Assembly: GCA_030066975.1 (NCBI GenBank)
Contig: JASJAO010000001.1
Coordinates: 310,001-374,000, forward strand
Direction: 5' to 3'
Origin: Henriciella sp.
GTDB taxonomy: Bacteria > Pseudomonadota > Alphaproteobacteria > Caulobacterales > Hyphomonadaceae
DNA: 64,000 nucleotides
Part shown: one piece after another, positions 34,584 to 54,344 of the stretch
Numbering within the stretch: position 1 is the stretch's first letter
Layout of the letters: each line of letters starts with the position of its first letter
Program-made: the position numbers and the translations under genes
The notes under the pieces: generated by a model
What the model saw: the letters and a program-made list of their open reading frames with translations, nothing else
Database searches by the model: none
Told to the model about the DNA's origin: nothing

Positions 34584-35393
34584 TTGGTGAATCGGACGAA
34601 CATACGGACTTTCTTGTACAAACAACTGGAGCCCGGAGCGCTGGGCCGTCCAGGCCTCTCTTTGACCAACAAGATTGTCATTGCTCTGGTTCTGACAAGC
34701 TTCATTGCTCTGGCGATGGAAACCGAGCCGTCGCTGGATCCTGATTGGCGCAGAGCCATTAACCTTCTGAACGTTGTCATTCTTGTCTTGTTTGCGATTG
34801 AATACAGCGTTCGTGTTTGGGTCGCCGGACAGAACCCAAAGTATCAAGGGGTTAGTGGTCGCCTGAAATATATGGCGACGCCTTATGCCGTCACAGACTT
34901 GATCGCATTTCTTCCTGAACTCCTGTGGCTGATATTCGCAGCCGGCGGCGCGGCAGATGAGACTTTGCTTGTTCTCCGGGTCCTTCGATTGGCCCGTCTG
35001 GTGAAACTTGCACGGTTCGTTCCAGCATTTGACGTCCTGGTAGCCACCGTTCAACGCGCTGGGTCTCAGCTCCTAACCACGCTGGCGATGGCGCTCGCGT
35101 TGGTTTATGTATCCGCGGTCATGCTCTACTTCATCGAGGGTATCGGCCAGGACAATGAAGCGTTCGCCTCGATTCCGCGAGCCCTGTGGTGGGCCATCGC
35201 CACACTCACGACAGTTGGCTATGGCGATGTGTATCCCGTTACAACCCTCGGTCGGATCGCTGCATCAGTGATGGCACTCGCCGGCATTGGTGTGGTTGCG
35301 CTACCCGCAGGCGTTTTTGCAAGCGCGTTCGCCGACGAACTCCGACAGCGCGAACGTGCTAAATCTGGCTCGGAACCACCTGAAGGACGCTAG
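34584..35393 (+). CDS. Voltage-gated-type potassium channel
   Basis: An inner-membrane 6-TM ion channel of 269 residues. S1-S4 span about residues 25-145, with S4 showing regularly spaced arginines (RVLRLARLVKLARF). The pore loop has the K+ selectivity filter TTVGYGD. A short cytoplasmic tail (ASAFADELRQRERA) ends the protein. Its start has no ATG: TTG at 34584 or GTG at 34587. It converges on parB; the two stops share CTAG (35390-35393). Confidence 0.9.
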   Translation: MVNRTNIRTFLYKQLEPGALGRPGLSLTNKIVIALVLTSFIALAMETEPSLDPDWRRAINLLNVVILVLFAIEYSVRVWVAGQNPKYQGVSGRLKYMATPYAVTDLIAFLPELLWLIFAAGGAADETLLVLRVLRLARLVKLARFVPAFDVLVATVQRAGSQLLTTLAMALALVYVSAVMLYFIEGIGQDNEAFASIPRALWWAIATLTTVGYGDVYPVTTLGRIAASVMALAGIGVVALPAGVFASAFADELRQRERAKSGSEPPEGR

Positions 35394-36298
35394 GTTCGTT
35401 TGGCGGTAAGCTTCCGGCACAACTCGTCGAGCTGTTCAAGATCGCGGTATTTGACCCGCAGCTCACCGCCTTTGGCGCCATGCCGGATATCCACATCCAG
35501 CCCCAGCGTCCGCGCGAGATCTGATTCAAGTGCGGCGGTGTCGACATCTTTCTCTGCTTCGTTGACCTTGCGGGCAATCGTTTCCAAAGATCCACCATCC
35601 CGCATCCGCTTGGCCAAGGCTTCTGCGTCGCGAACGTTCAAGCCCTTCTTGACGATCATGTCGACGATTGGACCCGGTTCCGGTGCGCCAAGTGCGGCGC
35701 GCGCATGACCGGCGGATATCCGCCCGTGGCGCAGGTGCTCCCTGGCGGTTTCAGGCAGGTTTAGGAGCCGTATCGTGTTCGAGATGTGGACGCGACTTTT
35801 CCCCACGCTCTCAGCGAGGCTTTCCTGGGTCCGCCCAAATCGCTTCATCAGGGCGCCGTACGCCTCGGCCTCTTCGATTGGATTGAGGTCGCTGCGTTGC
35901 ACGTTTTCGATAATGCCCACTTCGAGAAGCTCCAACTCGTCGGCGTCCCGAACAACGGCTGGAATAGTTTTCAGACCGGCACGCTGGGAGGCGCGCCACC
36001 GCCGTTCGCCGGCAACAATCTGATACTGTCCCGGCGCGTCCGGATCCGGGCGAACCAGGATTGGCTGCAGCACACCGCGCTGTTTGACCGAATGTGCGAG
36101 CTCGTCCAGCTCCGGCTCAGAAAATGTGCGACGCGGCTGAGCCGGATTCGGACGAATGGTCGAAATCTCGATCTCATTGGTCGCAGCAGCCGGTTTGGTG
36201 GAACCGGCTGGCGCGACATCAACGCCCTCAACCTCTCCGATCAATGCAGATAGTCCACGCCCGAGGCGTTTCTGTTTGCTTCGCGTTTCGGCGTTCAT
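35390..36298 (-). CDS. parB: Chromosome partitioning protein ParB
   Basis: CTPase clamp that loads on parS sites, spreads along DNA and recruits ParA to segregate the origin. The 302 residues have a short basic N-terminus (KQKRLGRGLSALIG), the CTPase/ParB-N domain with GERRWRASQRAGL (the GERRxR motif), a helix-turn-helix (TQESLAESVGKSRVHISNTIRLLNLP split over about 145-185), and a C-terminal dimer domain ending ELCRKLTAKRT. It is in operon with parA (3 bp apart). Confidence 0.97.
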   Translation of the reverse strand: MNAETRSKQKRLGRGLSALIGEVEGVDVAPAGSTKPAAATNEIEISTIRPNPAQPRRTFSEPELDELAHSVKQRGVLQPILVRPDPDAPGQYQIVAGERRWRASQRAGLKTIPAVVRDADELELLEVGIIENVQRSDLNPIEEAEAYGALMKRFGRTQESLAESVGKSRVHISNTIRLLNLPETAREHLRHGRISAGHARAALGAPEPGPIVDMIVKKGLNVRDAEALAKRMRDGGSLETIARKVNEAEKDVDTAALESDLARTLGLDVDIRHGAKGGELRVKYRDLEQLDELCRKLTAKRT

Positions 36299-36301
36299 GG
36301 G

Positions 36302-37117
36302 TTAGGCGCTCCGCAGGCTTCGCTCACGTTGCAGCATCTCAGACGCGAGACGGATATAGGCCTCACTTCCCGGGCAGCGATAATCGTAAAGCAGAGCGGG
36401 TTTGCCAAAACTTGGTGCCTCCGACAGGCGCACGTTTCGCGGAATCACGGTATTATAGACTTTCGCACCCAGTACCGAGCGCACCTCGTCCGCAACCTGG
36501 TCGGAAAGATTGTTCCGCCGATCATACATAGTGAGGACAACTCCCTGAATGTCGAGATCCGGATTCAATCCGCCGCGGACCAATTCGATCGTTCTAAGCA
36601 ACTGGCTGAGCCCTTCCAACGCCAGGAACTCGCACTGCAGCGGGACCAGTACGGAATTCGCGGCGGTCATTGCGTTCAAAGTGAGAGCGGACAAGGATGG
36701 CGGGCAGTCGATCAGGATATAATCATACTGGGTCAAACCACGCGCTTGCGCTTCTGACAGGTATGCTCGCAACGCGTCACGAAGCCTGTAAGAGCGATGT
36801 GGGTCGTCAGCCAGCTCAGTTTCAACGCCTGCGAGGTTTTCGTCCCCGGGCACGATATCAAGGCGCGGCACCAACGTGTGAAGGACCGCCTCGCCCAGGA
36901 AGACGTCATCGACCACAAGATCGTAACTCGTCAACTGGCGTTCTGGCCGGGTGATACCCAATCCCGTCGAAGCGTTTCCCTGCGCGTCGAAATCGATCAC
37001 CAGAACGTTGCGCCCGACCGCAGCGAGCGCGGTTCCGAGATTGATGGAGGTCGTTGTTTTCCCAACCCCACCCTTCTGATTAACGATCGCCAAAATACGT
37101 GTTTTATTGGTCGACAC
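36302..37117 (-). CDS. parA: Chromosome partitioning ATPase ParA
   Basis: ATP-dependent DNA-binding motor that pulls ParB-parS complexes toward the pole. The 271 residues carry the deviant Walker A motif QKGGVGKTTTS (residues 14-24), the Walker A' region DFDAQGNASTGLG, and DCPPSLSALTLNAM for Walker B. It overlaps rsmG by 14 bp. A half-parS-like CACGTGAAACC lies at its 5' end (37115-37125). Order rsmG-parA-parB is the standard one near alphaproteobacterial origins. Confidence 0.97.
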   Translation of the reverse strand: MSTNKTRILAIVNQKGGVGKTTTSINLGTALAAVGRNVLVIDFDAQGNASTGLGITRPERQLTSYDLVVDDVFLGEAVLHTLVPRLDIVPGDENLAGVETELADDPHRSYRLRDALRAYLSEAQARGLTQYDYILIDCPPSLSALTLNAMTAANSVLVPLQCEFLALEGLSQLLRTIELVRGGLNPDLDIQGVVLTMYDRRNNLSDQVADEVRSVLGAKVYNTVIPRNVRLSEAPSFGKPALLYDYRCPGSEAYIRLASEMLQRERSLRSA

Positions 37118-37739
37118 GTGAAACCTCCGATATCTTCAGTATGACCCCGTCTCCGCCGCTCTGGCTTGGAATCACCTCATGGGCGAATGTCCAGTATTCT
37201 TCGGCTTGCGTCAATTCTTCCTGCCAGGTTCGACCTTTCGGAATGATCGCATAAGCCCCAGCATCAAGCCAGGTCGACGCGTAGTCGAGCAGCCTCGGGA
37301 GCGGGGCAAACGCGCGGGCCGTGACGCAGGCCGCCTTCACATCCTTCACAGTCTCGACCCGCGCCTGACGTACAGACGCCTGTAATCCGACCCGGTCGAC
37401 CACGTCGCGAAGATAGGCGCATTTCTTGCCAACCGTTTCAATCATTACGATCTCAGCCGCTGGGTGCTCCAAACATGCCGCCAGAACAAGACCGGGAAAA
37501 CCGGAGCCGGACCCCAGATCAACGGTCACCGCATCAGGCGAAATGAGCGGAAACAGTTGAAGCGAATCCAATACATGCCGGCGCCAAATATGGTCCATTT
37601 CGGCCGGGCCGATAAGATTGATGCGTTGGCGCCACGCATCCAGCAAATCGACAACCGTCTGCAGCTTCGTGAGTGTTTCACGTGAAACATCGACATATTC
37701 ACTCAAGTGATTCGGTCCGAATCCGTCGAGATCAGCCAT
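37104..37739 (-). CDS. rsmG: 16S rRNA (guanine527-N7)-methyltransferase
   Basis: Methylates G527 of 16S rRNA with S-adenosylmethionine. The 211-residue protein has [15 protein letters not shown] for SAM binding and the [10 protein letters not shown] segment of GidB proteins. Length matches the family. A perfect parS lies within its 5' third. The start ([11 protein letters not shown]) overlaps the mnmG 3' end by 8 bp, giving a co-translated mnmG-rsmG-parA-parB unit. Confidence 0.95.
37674..37689. promoter_or_regulatory. parS site 1 (inside rsmG)
   Basis: TGTTTCACGTGAAACA, a perfect 16-bp palindrome identical to the widely conserved parS consensus bound by ParB. Confidence 0.96.
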
Positions 37740-39609
37740 GCTTGGACGATACCTGGTTGGTTCGTTTCCGTCTCACGTGCGCTAAAAGCGCCGTGAGGGC
37801 ACCGGGAGTGATACCCTCGATGCGCGAGGCCTGACCAAGTGTGGACGGACGGATCATTTCCAGTTTGACCCTGACCTCATTCGAAAGCCCACCGACCGAC
37901 GCGTAGTCGAGAGACCGCGGAATTTCCAAAGCTTCATCGCGCTTTAAGGCCTCAATGTCCGACTTCTGCCGATCAATGTATCCGGCATAAGTCGCTTCAA
38001 TCGAGAGCTGGGCCTTGATGGCTTCCGGTATATCATCGAGGTCCGGGAACGCTTTGGAGAGATCGTCGAACGAGATCGAGGGATAGGCGAGATACTCCCA
38101 GGCTGTTCGCCGCTGACCGTCCTGATTGACCTTCCAACCACGCTTCGCCGCCTCGTTTGGCGTGAGCGACTCTGCCTCAAGATGCGCCCGGCCCGACTCG
38201 AGCTGCACATGTTTCACGTGAAACGTTGAAGCCCGACGCTCACCGACAAGCCCGAGCTCTATGCCGCGCCGGGTCAGACGCTGATCCGCATTATCAGACC
38301 GAAGACTCAGTCGGTACTCCGCGCGCGATGTAAACATCCGGTAGGGCTCAGTCACGCCCCGCGTCACCAGGTCATCAACGAGCACGCCGATATAGGCTTC
38401 TGATCGGTTGAGCACGGCTGACGGTAGTCCCAGGACAGACCGGGCAGCGTTCAGTCCGGCCATCAGGCCTTGTGCCCCGGCTTCCTCATAGCCTGTTGTC
38501 CCATTGATCTGTCCCGCAAGGAACAAGGCCGGCAGCGCCTTAACCTGGAGACCATGATCGAGGGCCCTTGGATCAACATAGTCATACTCGATGGCATAAC
38601 CGGGCTCGATGATCTTAACCATGGCCAAGCCCGGAATCGTTCGGACAAAGGCATCCTGCACGTCTGCGGGCAGTGACGTAGAAATACCGTTCGGATAGAC
38701 AGTGTGGTCATCCAGACCTTCCGGCTCCAGGAAGATCTGATGTCGGGTCTTGTCAGCGAAGCGATGAACCTTGTCTTCGATCGAGGGACAGTAGCGGGGG
38801 CCCCGCCCGGCAATTGCGCCTGAGTAGACCGCCGACTTGTTCAAGTTCTCAGCGATGATCTTATGGGTTTCGACATTAGTGAATGTAATGCCGCAGGCAA
38901 TCTGCGACACTTCGATCCGGTCGGTCAAAAACGAGAACGGAATAGGCTCAGCGTCAGCCGGCTGCATTTCGAGGCGATCCCAGTCAATCGTTCGACCATC
39001 GAGCCGCGCTGGTGTGCCCGTCTTGAGGCGGCCCATGGGCAAATTCAGGTCGTATAACCGATCGGCCAATCCGACCGACGGCGCCTCACCAATCCGACCG
39101 GCCGGGATACGATCTTCCCCACGATGAATAACGCCTTTGAGAAATGTGCCCGTCGTAATGACGATGGCCTTGGCAGAATATGTTTTTCCGGACTGGCCAA
39201 CAACACCAGACACTTTTCCGTCGGTCTCGGTGATGTCCTCGGCACCATCCTCAATGACGTCCAGATTGGGATGGTTCAGAATTTCGTTTTGCATCGCCTC
39301 CCGGTAAAGATGGCGATCGATCTGGGCCCGCGGCCCCCAGACGGCCGGGCCCTTGGAACGGTTCAGCATCCGGAACTGGATCCCCGCCCTATCCGCCACG
39401 CGTGCCATGAGACCGTCTAGAGCATCGATCTCACGAACCAGGTGTCCTTTCCCCAAGCCGCCGATCGCGGGGTTGCAGGACATCTCTCCGATCTTGGCCT
39501 TGCTATGCGTGATCAATGCGGTCCGGACACCAAGGCGCGCCGCCGCCGAAGCTGCTTCGCATCCGGCGTGACCGCCGCCAATAACAATAACATCAAAATC
39601 GGTAGACAT
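37732..39609 (-). CDS. mnmG: tRNA uridine-5-carboxymethylaminomethyl modification enzyme MnmG
   Basis: With MnmE it adds the carboxymethylaminomethyl group to wobble U34 of certain tRNAs, using FAD. The 625 residues start [20 protein letters not shown] with the FAD-binding [10 protein letters not shown] motif; the ATG at 39609 is preferred over upstream codons to 39666. Family segments [18 protein letters not shown] and [14 protein letters not shown] are present. A parS site (one mismatch) lies in its coding sequence at 38210-38225. Confidence 0.97.
38210..38225. promoter_or_regulatory. parS site 2 (inside mnmG)
   Basis: TGTTTCACGTGAAACG, differing from the consensus only in the last base. 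Confidence 0.92.
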
Positions 39610-39666
39610 GTTCTGCTCACAATTTGGTGCCGCCTTGTATCGCAAACTCCAGGAAATCGATAGCAA

Positions 39667-40992
39667 CTATTTACCGATGCAGAAGGATGAAAAAACCTCA
39701 CCGAGCACGTCTTCAACTTCAACATGTCCCGTCAGACTGGCGAGGAGTTTAGAGCCCTGTCGAACATGTTCGGACACCAGCTCCAAACCATATCCAGACT
39801 GAAGCATGCTCGTCGCCTGGGAAAACTCCTGGCGTGCGGAGGTGATGGCCTGCCGATGACGAGCGCGCGTAATCATTGGCGCCTCAGCTTGCGCCCCGAT
39901 TGATTTCAATCGTCGCGTGATTTCGGAAATGAGAGCATCAACGCCCGCACCCGTCGCCGCAGAAATCTGGAATGTTTCACGTGAAACATCATCTGCTTCG
40001 CGCAAATCCGATTTGCTGTGAACGAGGATATCTTGAGGACCTGAGCCCGCCTCCGCCGGCGCGGTGTCACCCGGTGCGACCAGCCAAAGTCTGAGGTCGG
40101 CCTCGTCGGCTTTTGCATGCGCGCGACGGACCCCCTCCGCCTCTACGACATCCAACGTTTCTCTAAGACCGGCCGTGTCTGACAGCCATACCAGATATCC
40201 GCCGAGAATGAGGCGAACCTCCACAACGTCCCGGGTTGTGCCGGGAATATCTGTGACGATCGCCGCGTCTCTTCCGGCGATCCTATTCAACAGGGTCGAC
40301 TTTCCGGCGTTTGGTTTGCCGAGGATTGCGATCTGAAATCCGTCCCGGATACGCTCCGTGATGTTTCCACTGTCCATCGCAGCATCCAGATTTGTAATTA
40401 GCTGTTCGAGAATTACGAGAACAGGCTGGCCGACCTGTGTTGGCGCATCTTCCTCGTCCGGAAAGTCAATGCCCGCCTCAAGAAGCGCATGGCATTCGGT
40501 CAGCCTCTGCCGCCAATCACCGTACAGATCCGCCAGAGCACCATCATATTGCAGAGTGGCCTGACGATGCTGCGCAACACTCGTGGCGTCGATCAGGTCA
40601 GCAATCGCTTCAGCTTTTGTGAGATCTAACTTTCCAGCCTGGAAGGCCCGTCGTGTGAACTCGCCGGGTTCTGCCAGTCTTGCTCCGGCCTCATACAGTG
40701 CCGCTAGAGCCAGGTCGACAATGATCTGCCCACCGTGAAGCGAAAGTTCGAGTGTATCTTCACCGGTATAACTCGCGGGACCTGGCATAAAGACCGCCAG
40801 GCCCTGATCGATCGTCTGACCTGAAGCGTCGGATACATTCGTCAGAACAGATATCCGGGGCTCCGGTAAACCGGCAGAAAGAAGTGATGTCGCGATCGGC
40901 CGAACCCGGGGTCCCGAAACCCGAATAATACAAATCGCCGAAGGAGGCGGACCAGAGGCCAGTGCGCAAATCGTGTCGCGCGTCGGATCCAT
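39667..40992 (-). CDS. mnmE: tRNA modification GTPase MnmE
   Basis: GTPase partner of MnmG in wobble-uridine modification. The 441 residues show the N-terminal folate-binding domain (ICIIRVSGP, TRRAFQAGKLDL), the inserted G domain with GKPNAGKSTLLNRI (G1), DIPGTTRD (G2/G3 region) and SDTAGLR, and the terminal FCIGK with the catalytic cysteine. Operon with mnmG; the start at 40992 is 2 bp from the rho stop codon, so rho may be cotranscribed. parS site 3 lies within it. Confidence 0.97.
   Translation of the reverse strand: MDPTRDTICALASGPPPSAICIIRVSGPRVRPIATSLLSAGLPEPRISVLTNVSDASGQTIDQGLAVFMPGPASYTGEDTLELSLHGGQIIVDLALAALYEAGARLAEPGEFTRRAFQAGKLDLTKAEAIADLIDATSVAQHRQATLQYDGALADLYGDWRQRLTECHALLEAGIDFPDEEDAPTQVGQPVLVILEQLITNLDAAMDSGNITERIRDGFQIAILGKPNAGKSTLLNRIAGRDAAIVTDIPGTTRDVVEVRLILGGYLVWLSDTAGLRETLDVVEAEGVRRAHAKADEADLRLWLVAPGDTAPAEAGSGPQDILVHSKSDLREADDVSRETFQISAATGAGVDALISEITRRLKSIGAQAEAPMITRARHRQAITSARQEFSQATSMLQSGYGLELVSEHVRQGSKLLASLTGHVEVEDVLGEVFSSFCIGK
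39973..39988. promoter_or_regulatory. parS site 3 (inside mnmE)
   Basis: TGTTTCACGTGAAACA, a perfect match to the parS consensus, about 2.3 kb from site 1. Confidence 0.96.
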
Positions 40993-42847: not shown

Positions 42848-43888
42848 TCAGTGGCCTTCTCTCAAAATTTCCACGACGCGCTCAACATGTGGGATCGGTG
42901 TTTCAGGCCGAACACCATGTCCAAGATTGAAAATATGCGGCCGATCTGAATAGGCGTCGAGGAGAAACCGCACACGGTCTTCCATAGCTTGCCCGCCCGC
43001 GATCAGTAGGAGCGGGTCTAGATGGCCTTGAACCGGTAAATCGACGGGTAAGGCGGATTTTACGAAGGAGGGCGCGATGGCGGTGTCGAGCGCAACGGCG
43101 CTGACCGGCACGTTCGAAACATAGTCCGGCAGGACCGTGCCCGCTCCACGGGGGAAGCCGATCACAGGGACTGTCACACCAAGTTCTCGCAATCGGTTAA
43201 TCAAAGCCGCGTTTGGCTTGGTCACAATGTGATCAAACACGTCAGCTGGAAGGCCCTCTGCCCAAGACTCAAACAGCATCAACGCGTCCGCACCCGCGCT
43301 TACTTGCTCAGCCAGATAATGAGCGCTTACCTCCACCAAATCGGAAAGCAGTTGGTCGAGCGCTTCCGGTTTCTGATAGGCCCAGATCCGGGCAGAACTC
43401 TTGTCCGTCCCGCCGCGCCCTTCAATGGCGTAAAGCGCAACGGTCCACGGGGCCCCACAGAACCCGATCAGCGCTTTGCCAGATGCTAAAGAGGCACGAA
43501 CCCGAGACACGGTTTCATAGACGGGCGAGAGTCTTTGAACAGCTTTTTCAACCGGTGTCGTACCGAGCTCAGAGCCGGTCTCGACTGTTTGTACGATAGG
43601 TCCAACACCTTTCTCGAACCGTACATTCAGTCCGAGCGCATCAAGCACGAGCAAAATGTCAGCGAACAGGATGGCAGCGTCCATATCGTATCTGCGAATG
43701 GGCTGAAGCGTGGCTTCCGCAGCCATGGAGGGCGAGTAGCAGAAATCTAGAAAGTCCTTTGCTCGACTTCGCAGGTTCAGATATTCAGGCAGATGACGCC
43801 CAGCTTGGCGCATCATCCAGACAGGTACTGGAGACTGTCTTTTACCACTAAGGACTTTTAGAAATCGAGACGAATCGATGGTTGCCAT
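42848..43888 (-). CDS. hemE: Uroporphyrinogen decarboxylase
   Basis: Decarboxylates uroporphyrinogen III to coproporphyrinogen III in haem synthesis, without cofactor. The 346-residue protein has PVWMMRQAGRHLPEY (the RQAGR signature), FADILLVLDALG, GFCGAPWTV and the C-terminal FNLGHGVRPETP. The ATG at 43888 is used; the TTG just upstream is unlikely. It forms the hemE-hemJ unit facing away from the origin. In Caulobacter the origin lies beside hemE. Confidence 0.96.
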   Translation of the reverse strand: MATIDSSRFLKVLSGKRQSPVPVWMMRQAGRHLPEYLNLRSRAKDFLDFCYSPSMAAEATLQPIRRYDMDAAILFADILLVLDALGLNVRFEKGVGPIVQTVETGSELGTTPVEKAVQRLSPVYETVSRVRASLASGKALIGFCGAPWTVALYAIEGRGGTDKSSARIWAYQKPEALDQLLSDLVEVSAHYLAEQVSAGADALMLFESWAEGLPADVFDHIVTKPNAALINRLRELGVTVPVIGFPRGAGTVLPDYVSNVPVSAVALDTAIAPSFVKSALPVDLPVQGHLDPLLLIAGGQAMEDRVRFLLDAYSDRPHIFNLGHGVRPETPIPHVERVVEILREGH

Positions 43889-44097
43889 CAAGTACCCCTA
43901 AACCCAAGGATCATTTATCCGCCAATTATCATTATTAAGACGTAAGTCTCGTGGAAAACGTCGGGTGAGTGCATTTGTCCCTTAAGTTTCCACAGGCTGT
44001 CCCCAGCTTCGACAGATGTTAGGTATTTGTTAATCTACTGAAATCCTGATTGAATTTTGTCGTACACCTGTTCAGTGCCCAAATGAGAACGTTCCGA

Positions 44098-44141
44098 GAC
44101 TCTCCAGGAGTCGGATTCATACAGCTGTGAATTTTAGAGTC
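44098..44141. promoter_or_regulatory. Cluster of four GANTC methylation sites in oriC
   Basis: GACTC at 44098-44102, GAGTC at 44108-44112, GATTC at 44114-44118 and GAGTC at 44137-44141. GANTC is the target of the cell-cycle methylase CcrM, which in Caulobacter couples methylation state to replication. Confidence 0.85.
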
Positions 44142-44161
44142 AGTTTTTATGGCTAATACAA

Positions 44162-44181
44162 TTATCCACAAGCTATCCACA
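44162..44181 (+). promoter_or_regulatory. DnaA boxes in oriC
   Basis: TTATCCACA at 44162-44170 is a perfect DnaA box; CTATCCACA at 44173-44181 differs in one base. The two are in the same direction, 11 bp apart start to start, so two DnaA molecules could bind side by side. Confidence 0.9.
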
Positions 44182-44242
44182 GGGCTTGTCCAATTCAGTT
44201 AAACCCTTCAAACCATCGCTGACTAAGTTACGGGAATGAGCC

Positions 44243-45064
44243 ATGCGCCCTGCGATCTATTTTAACGTCCATTTGGTGTCTGACTCCACTGGGGAAACAC
44301 TCAACGCGGTGATGCGAGCCGCAGCGGCACAATTTGATCGCACGATTCCGCTGGAGCACAATTACTATCTTGTGCGCTCTGAGCGTCAGCTTGATCGTGT
44401 GATGGCTGAAATAGAAGGTGCGCCCGGTGTTGTCTGGTACACGATTTCGGATGAGGATCTGAGGCGAAAGCTAGAACAGTTCTGTCGTCAGCGAGGTATC
44501 CAGACCCTGCCTGTTCTTGACCCGTCCATTCATATGCTGAGCCGGCATCTCGGAATTGCGGCCAGTGAGCGCGTGGCAGGTCAGCACTCGATGAATGCGG
44601 AGTACTTTAAACGAATATCGGCGATTGATTTCGCGCTGCATCACGATGATGGTCAAAATGTCCAGGGTCTGGTCAATGCCGACGTCGTGTTGCTCGGGGT
44701 CAGCCGAACATCAAAAACGCCGACTTGTGTCTATCTCGCCAATCGCGGGGTTAAGGCCGGGAATATTCCATTGGTGCCGGGCATCCCGCCGCCGCCTCTG
44801 ATTGAGGAGTTGCGAGATCCGATGGTGGTTGGACTGAAAATTGGTGCCGAGCGCCTGCTTCAGATCCGCAGCCAGCGTCTGATGGCGTTGAACGAATCCA
44901 ATCAGACCGATTATACTGACGAAGAAGCGGTTCGGGCTGAAATCACCGAAGCAAACCGGTTATTTCAGCGCAACAAATGGCCGGTGATTGATGTGTCTCG
45001 TCGCAGCGTAGAAGAAACGGCTGCCGCTATCCTCAACAAGCTCAGCGAACGGAACGGGGTGTAA
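44243..45064 (+). CDS. ppsR: Pyruvate, water dikinase regulatory protein (PPSR/DUF299)
   Basis: Bifunctional serine/threonine kinase and phosphorylase controlling phosphoenolpyruvate synthase or pyruvate phosphate dikinase by ADP-dependent inactivation and phosphate-dependent activation. The 273-residue protein has the N-terminal SDSTGET motif and GVSRTSKTP (P-loop-like, residues 152-160), characteristic of DUF299. It is first in a plus-strand operon reading away from oriC; its stop touches the maf ATG (TAATG). Confidence 0.93.
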   Translation: MRPAIYFNVHLVSDSTGETLNAVMRAAAAQFDRTIPLEHNYYLVRSERQLDRVMAEIEGAPGVVWYTISDEDLRRKLEQFCRQRGIQTLPVLDPSIHMLSRHLGIAASERVAGQHSMNAEYFKRISAIDFALHHDDGQNVQGLVNADVVLLGVSRTSKTPTCVYLANRGVKAGNIPLVPGIPPPPLIEELRDPMVVGLKIGAERLLQIRSQRLMALNESNQTDYTDEEAVRAEITEANRLFQRNKWPVIDVSRRSVEETAAAILNKLSERNGV

Positions 45065-53585: not shown

Positions 53586-53696
53586 GGGGTCTCCGGTCGC
53601 GTAGCCAGAACGGGGTTCACTGCGACCCGGCACGATTGCCGGACGTCAGCCGTCGCTACGATTGTGGCGATCCGATCCCGTTTTGGATTTGGCGTT

Positions 53697-54344
53697 TCAG
53701 TCGCCAGAGGGGGTCGGTTTCTTGGCAAGGGCAGCTTCGACAACGGCCCGTGCTTTATCCACAGCGGCGTCTATAGACAGATGAGTCGTATCGATCAAGA
53801 CAGCATCTGCGGCCGCGACCATTGGGGCATCCTTGCGGGATTTGTCGCGTTCATCGCGCTCTTTGAGCTGCGAGATCATCTCGTCCAGCGTGAGCGTTTC
53901 GCCCTTGCTCACGAGCTCCTTCCATCGACGGAGCGCGCGCGCTTCAACAGAGGCGTCAATCCACAGTTTCACGTCTGCCTCCGGGCAAATCACCGTTCCA
54001 ATGTCGCGGCCATCAAGCACGGCACCGCCGGGTTGCAGAGCAAACCGGCGCTGCAGGTTTAACAGGGCGGCACGGACTTCCGGCACAGCCGCGACTTTTG
54101 AAGCAGCCTGACCCACTTCAGCGGTTCGCAGCTCGTCATCGGTGTAGCCCTGGAAGTTGAGGCTCTCTGCAATGTCGGCCAGGGCCTGCGCATCGTCGAA
54201 ATCGACTTCGGCGGCGAGCGCGATCAGGCCAGTCAGGCGGTAAAGTTGCCCGGTATCCATATACGGCAAGCCGTACTCAGCTGAGAGCTGCCGCGCGATC
54301 GTGCCTTTTCCCGAGGCGAGCGTGCCGTCAATCGCAATAATCAT
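53697..54344 (-). CDS. cmk: Cytidylate kinase
   Basis: Phosphorylates CMP and dCMP using ATP in nucleotide salvage and synthesis. The 215-residue protein starts MIIAIDGTLASGKGTIARQL, with the P-loop DGTLASGKGT in place of the more common DGPAGSGKG. It has MDTGQLYRLTG, the conserved substrate loop, and VLDGRDIGTVICPEA. It is between aroA (11 bp upstream) and rpsA on the minus strand; aroA-cmk-rpsA is a common alphaproteobacterial order. Confidence 0.95.
   Translation of the reverse strand: MIIAIDGTLASGKGTIARQLSAEYGLPYMDTGQLYRLTGLIALAAEVDFDDAQALADIAESLNFQGYTDDELRTAEVGQAASKVAAVPEVRAALLNLQRRFALQPGGAVLDGRDIGTVICPEADVKLWIDASVEARALRRWKELVSKGETLTLDEMISQLKERDERDKSRKDAPMVAAADAVLIDTTHLSIDAAVDKARAVVEAALAKKPTPSGD

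Follow-up and report, generated by a model that had tools for sequence, protein, structure and literature searches.

Uroporphyrinogen decarboxylase (hemE) and a COG1806 kinase/pyrophosphorylase (PPSR) are encoded by neighbouring genes that are transcribed away from an AT-rich gap lying within the window, by which we mean the whole 64-kb stretch of DNA analysed (Table 1). The likely start codon of hemE is the ATG at 43888 (alternative 43891), and PPSR starts at 44243. The original prediction had taken this gap for a probable chromosomal replication origin, with genes diverging from it on both sides, hemE and an RP001-type gene flanking it as in Caulobacter, and parABS 4-8 kb away. The gene arrangement is as it described: profile matches identify both flanks, PPSR and the RP001-type gene being one gene (COG1806/DUF299), and parA, parB and three parS copies (GTTTCACGTGAAAC) are found 3.9-8.5 kb to the left of the gap. 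All three parS sites (37676-39986) lie within coding genes of rsmG, mnmG and mnmE type, between parAB and the origin. The G+C content of the gap is 43% vs 57% for the window, that is, 57% vs 43% A+T. The two genes are also neighbours in all 29 genomes of the same genus, in L031 and L043 and, among 20 further genomes from the family and order, in 19. The host assembly consists of 24 contigs and is 99.98% complete; dnaA (C14), ctrA (C21), gcrA and chpT (both C13) and CcrM (C18) reside on contigs other than that of the origin. Among named relatives, Henriciella MAGs are the closest to the host, ahead of Hyphomonas and other Hyphomonadaceae.

Table 1. Features of the probable replication origin and its neighbourhood (positions in the window)
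Feature	Position	Strand	Basis or remark
parB	35390..36298	minus	TIGR00180, 202 bits
parA	36302..37117	minus	matches to ParA-family ATPases
parS site 1 (TTTCACGTGAAA)	37676..37687		
parS site 2 (TTTCACGTGAAA)	38212..38223		
parS site 3 (TTTCACGTGAAA)	39975..39986		
hemE (uroporphyrinogen decarboxylase), left flank	42848..43891	minus	TIGR01464, 356 bits, above cut-off
Probable oriC, 354-bp AT-rich gap between divergent hemE and PPSR	43889..44242		G+C, G028 skew reversal, 31-origin alignment
TTATCATTATTAAG, conserved melting element, DnaA-trio-like 3-nt periodicity	43926..43939		near-invariant in 31 origins; melting minimum
Inverted DnaA box TTTTCCACG, 2 mismatches	43950..43958	minus	GTGGA core in 29/31 origins; putative unwinding-module anchor
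TTTGTCC, short conserved element	43974..43980	plus	TTGTC in most alignment rows
Weak DnaA box GTTTCCACA, 2 mismatches	43986..43994	plus	CACA core conserved among relatives
CtrA box 1 remnant (TTAGGTATTTGTTAA), 1 mismatch	44019..44033	plus	aligns with relatives' TTAAC-N6-TTAAC; 6.9 bits
CtrA box 2, lost (TTGAATTTTGTCGTAC)	44050..44065	plus	aligns with TTAAT-N6-TTAAC or similar; -15.6 bits
AGAACG, where relatives have GGAACA/AGAACA hexamer	44086..44091	plus	GAACA in 30/31 rows
Four-site GANTC (CcrM) cluster	44098..44141		44 bp; sites at 44098, 44108, 44114, 44137
Perfect DnaA box TTATCCACA	44162..44170	plus	
Second DnaA box CTATCCACA, 1 mismatch	44173..44181	plus	
CTTGT, conserved, after DnaA pair	44185..44189	plus	TTGT in 30/31 rows
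PPSR / RP001 (COG1806, DUF299 kinase/pyrophosphorylase), right flank	44243..45064	plus	PF03618, 302 bits; NF003742

The perfect DnaA box, its near-match and the two weaker boxes, one of them inverted, are all present where they had been located, and further boxes with two mismatches occur at 43915 and 44148. Within the 284 kb of this genome that were sampled, the gap is the stretch richest in DnaA boxes; the tandem arrangement TATCCACA-N3-TATCCACA has a single occurrence in the 3.57-Mb genome, where TTATCCACA itself is found only 17 times. The only other perfect box of the window, at 53755-53763, lies about 120 bp upstream of an rpsA-like minus-strand gene. Weak DnaA boxes are not significant by themselves, and it is their conservation that carries weight.

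An alignment of 31 related origins, the host's own included, reveals a common order of elements. On the hemE side, the near-invariant TTATCATTATTAAG is followed by the inverted DnaA box (GTGGAAA/GTGGACA), TTGTC and the weak DnaA box; the middle is occupied by two CtrA boxes about 31 bp apart and then GGAACA; towards PPSR come TGTG, joined in the host's group only by a packed GANTC block, the DnaA pair ending in TCCACAGG, which is kept in 30 of the 31 origins, and finally TTGT. The two conserved TTGT(C) spots may be very weak DnaA sites similar to W-boxes. As to the GAACA pentamer (mostly GGAACA), it matches no recognised binding site, and the host is the sole deviant from it.

The 20-mer melting minimum of the gap covers TTATCATTATTAAG and counts as one of the two most easily melted positions in the 64 kb. 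Its triplets have an invariant middle A at three of four positions, and at the fourth the A is kept in 29 of 31 origins. We applied the published rule for the basal unwinding system (a DnaA box with at most two mismatches, a spacer of at most 16 bp and at least three NAN triplets on the strand opposite TTATCCACA; PMC8287927), with triplet strand and polarity following the description for Helicobacter pylori (PMC8235120). The pattern is found in the host and, in all, in 24 of the 31 origins. Its spacer measures 11 bp, or 8 bp in those cases where a further triplet is included, and the published distribution of spacers peaks at 10-13 bp (PMC8287927). Since 26% of shuffled gaps show the pattern as well, it is conservation and the melting minimum that argue for an unwinding module here. 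The element at 43926-43939 and the inverted box fit such a putative module: they resemble the basal unwinding system in having a DnaA box, a short spacer and repeated NAN triplets, and differ from it in that the triplets past the first deviate from the 3'-GAT-5' consensus (PMC8287927). A role of TTATCATTATTAAG as an IHF or CtrA site was ruled out by its spacing.

The position of the origin is supported by skew in a relative, by the sites that the gap contains, by conservation and by the melting minimum. Skew was evaluated in G028, a closed same-genus relative with a 3.63-Mb genome in one contig, from which 40 stretches of 20 kb were sampled. This check, originally proposed for the host genome, gave in the relative a mean GC skew of +0.025 on the PPSR side vs -0.020 on the hemE side (p 4.5e-7), and the polar motif GGGNAGGG reverses at hemE-PPSR as well (39/6 to the right vs 12/36 to the left). 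The best symmetric origin by skew falls at 2.94-2.97 Mb and hemE-PPSR at 2.914 Mb, an agreement within the sampling, which places the origin to within about 100-150 kb. On the host contig C1 the local skew is noisy left of the gap, in a genome of 24 contigs, and the skew of the 64-kb window was dropped as origin evidence because its genes are strand-biased. In Hyphomonas neptunium, whose skew is also unclear, the origin was mapped close to hemE by marker frequency, and some 7 kb separate it from parAB (PMC6650430).

By its flanking genes, its DnaA-box cluster, its high A+T and the skew shift (in G028), the gap passes for an alphaproteobacterial oriC of the hemE/COG1806 type, the location known from Caulobacter and Rickettsia (PMC1914354). 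It is very probably the chromosomal oriC of this marine bacterium of the Henriciella/Hyphomonas group, and the skew and motif reversal in G028, the footprints in 31 origins and the mapped H. neptunium origin uphold the prediction in this respect. One could also see in the gap a mere divergent hemE/PPSR promoter region carrying DnaA- and CcrM-responsive sites, with the origin elsewhere, for instance at dnaA. The two genes do diverge from it, DnaA boxes and GANTC sites are found in promoters too, and another single TTATCCACA at 53755 stands upstream of a gene starting at 53633. The skew reversal of the closed relative at hemE-PPSR, the uniqueness of the tandem DnaA pair in the genome and near-uniqueness of the GANTC cluster, the H. 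neptunium marker-frequency peak near hemE and a dnaA contig (C14) in which no TTATCCACA was found speak against such a reading, and we regard it as very improbable.

The four packed GANTC sites were confirmed exactly where they had been reported, and theirs is the sole cluster of four within 60 bp in the 284 kb sampled of the host genome, where 0.018 would be expected. From this cluster the original prediction went on to methylation-linked firing, i.e. initiation would be tied to the CcrM methylation state, in a way similar to GATC and SeqA at the E. coli oriC. Besides the density of the cluster, such a link could draw on the retention of 3-6 sites in all 12 genomes of the host's group and on the presence of CcrM in the host (best structural match 6pbd, E 5e-158). 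Against it, the other relatives have only 1-3 sites and lack a dense cluster, and no SeqA-like reader is known. Moreover, Caulobacter crescentus carries several GANTC sites in its origin, and the loss of ccrM leaves its control of initiation unchanged (PMC3973325). Taken together, our analysis would not support methylation-linked firing at the gap, and a dependence of initiation on methylation appears unlikely.

The CtrA boxes are the part of the anatomy in which the host departs from its relatives. Most same-genus relatives have two strong CtrA boxes at fixed positions, through which, lying as they do between the DnaA sites, CtrA~P could silence the origin. In the host no TTAA-N7-TTAA was found in the gap, as had been noticed before, nor anywhere else in the 64-kb window, and the mismatch-tolerant search that had been recommended returned one site with a single mismatch, at 44019. 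The claim that this absence makes a difference from Caulobacter holds for the host; as a general difference it does not, most close relatives keeping two strong boxes. We derived a scoring matrix (TTAACnnTTCGTTAAC) from 36 distinct boxes found in relatives; it agrees with the TTAA-N7-TTAAC consensus obtained by ChIP-seq in H. neptunium (PMC7200025). With this matrix, which the rows with intact boxes had also trained, those relatives score 12.7-22.4 bits at box 1 and 10.3-22.4 bits at box 2, vs 6.9 and -15.6 bits in the host. Two perfect boxes are kept in L004, the nearest to the host in the hemE+PPSR tree, and in L003, so that a loss in the host's own lineage is the simplest reading; a similar erosion is seen in a separate group (L014, L015 and L029; support 94/96).

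The remainder of the CtrA pathway appears to be in place, as the ChpT, GcrA and CcrM genes are all present in the host, its CtrA does not differ from that of relatives in the winged helix, and both TTAAATCCTTGGTAA (-87) and the GANTC sites (-98, -59 and -17) are retained in the ctrA promoter. Genome-wide, TTAA-N7-TTAA occurs 13 times vs 24 for a reversed-pattern control, an absence of enrichment that makes these counts uninformative on the CtrA regulon. Perfect TTAA-N7-TTAAC sites lie elsewhere in the host just upstream of what is by sequence a parE-like gene (L162, G000:C17:9729-9744) and roughly 60 bp ahead of a gene with a PAS domain (L160, G000:C13:13109-13124), which is consistent with a CtrA regulon that may still work away from the origin. 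A relative, G013, has two ctrA-like genes (G013:C3:58539-59141 and G013:C18:843-1448), 90% and 80% identical to a Caulobacter-type query, by duplication, transfer or contamination of the MAG.

Since the host has lost one box and retains the other in weakened form, CtrA probably exerts little or no direct control over initiation there; we lean towards this reading, in which timing would be left to DnaA itself. The number of CtrA boxes at hemE-type origins is known to vary by species, down to none (PMC1914354), so that CtrA boxes are not strictly defining for an oriC of this type. As in C. crescentus the lack of CtrA binding at the origin perturbs the cycle only mildly in constant culture (PMC4468827), a natural loss is plausible. 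It may be argued, conversely, that CtrA still silences the origin through the degenerate box at 44019 and that nothing functional has changed: this is the best CtrA-like site of the gap and ranks within the top 2.5e-5 of positions genome-wide, the site conserved in the ctrA promoter scores lower still with the same matrix (just 2.9 bits), and the CtrA winged helix is unchanged. The drop of box 1 below the range of the relatives, the destruction of box 2 and the fact that a site with one mismatch arises in 26% of shuffled gaps make that possibility less likely than not.

The erosion may have a counterpart in cell biology. Flagellin (PF00669), the sole flagellar component searched, was not found in the host (a 99.98% complete genome), G006, G007, G013 and G023; all of the remaining 20 genomes of the genus that were searched have it. 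CtrA boxes are eroded in three of the five flagellin-less genomes vs none of the 20 with flagellin (Fisher p 0.004, relatedness ignored), in a set that left out G025-G028, including the eroded G027; G006 and G013 lack flagellin and keep their boxes. The flagellin-less genomes cluster in a poorly resolved part of the tree and thus represent few independent events. The association suggests, short of proof, that silencing of the origin by CtrA was relaxed once the motile stage had been lost. Tentatively, we may picture a non-flagellated Henriciella branch in which the loss of swarmers relaxed selection and CtrA boxes were shed, perhaps twice, while the other parts of the CtrA pathway were preserved, as was the DnaA/unwinding module. 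Flagella and dimorphism have been lost convergently in Caulobacteraceae, and the passages concerned make no mention of CtrA sites in the replication origin (PMC12700997). If true, the branch would be nature's counterpart to the Caulobacter mutants in the CtrA sites of Cori and would tie the layout of the origin to the loss of dimorphism, and, should box loss really track the loss of the motile stage, a natural test of the purpose of CtrA at the origin.

Taken as a whole, the locus is best explained as a hemE-PPSR-type oriC where DnaA would load and open the duplex, a reading to which we give a probability of roughly 0.9; the weakening of direct CtrA control that goes with it, with timing left to DnaA, is less certain. 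DnaA binding, the opening strand and the direction of opening are what we infer from sequence. Most likely, the tandem boxes at 44162-44181 and the weaker boxes would serve as loading sites for DnaA, which, from the inverted box at 43950, would extend onto the adjoining trio-like element; opening of the duplex there would admit the helicase, and the ParABS sites 4-6 kb away would then segregate the copies. Caulobacter and Hyphomonas already provide examples of this kind of origin in this position, and in itself the present one is ordinary; what is new is its aligned anatomy, a probable unwinding module and a decay of the CtrA boxes that is specific to the lineage. The series of 31 origins separates invariant parts (the melting element with its inverted box and the tandem DnaA pair) from dispensable ones (the CtrA boxes and the dense GANTC block).

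Among known systems, the origins of Ehrlichia ruminantium and one Wolbachia strain (PMC1914354) are likewise hemE-flanked alphaproteobacterial origins with reduced or missing CtrA boxes, those two being without any CtrA site. They belong, however, to obligate intracellular bacteria, whereas our host has all the CtrA pathway genes tested and its close relatives keep the boxes. The Cori of C. crescentus, between hemE and CC0001 (PMC1914354, PMC4468827), shares with the gap the hemE and COG1806 flanks, DnaA sites of mixed strength and GANTC sites. It has five CtrA sites, while the gap has at most one weak site, and it combines moderate G-boxes with weak W-boxes where the tandem pair of the gap includes a perfect DnaA box; as to IHF, no clear site was found in the gap, the best matches having two mismatches to WATCAANNNNTTR. 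The origin of H. neptunium, a member of the same family, resembles the host's in its place near hemE, in the distance to parAB, in nearby parS sites and in the presence of CtrA, GcrA and ChpT, and differs in that CtrA binds beside it, as seen by a ChIP-seq peak adjoining the origin (PMC7200025), whereas the host gap is without a perfect box.
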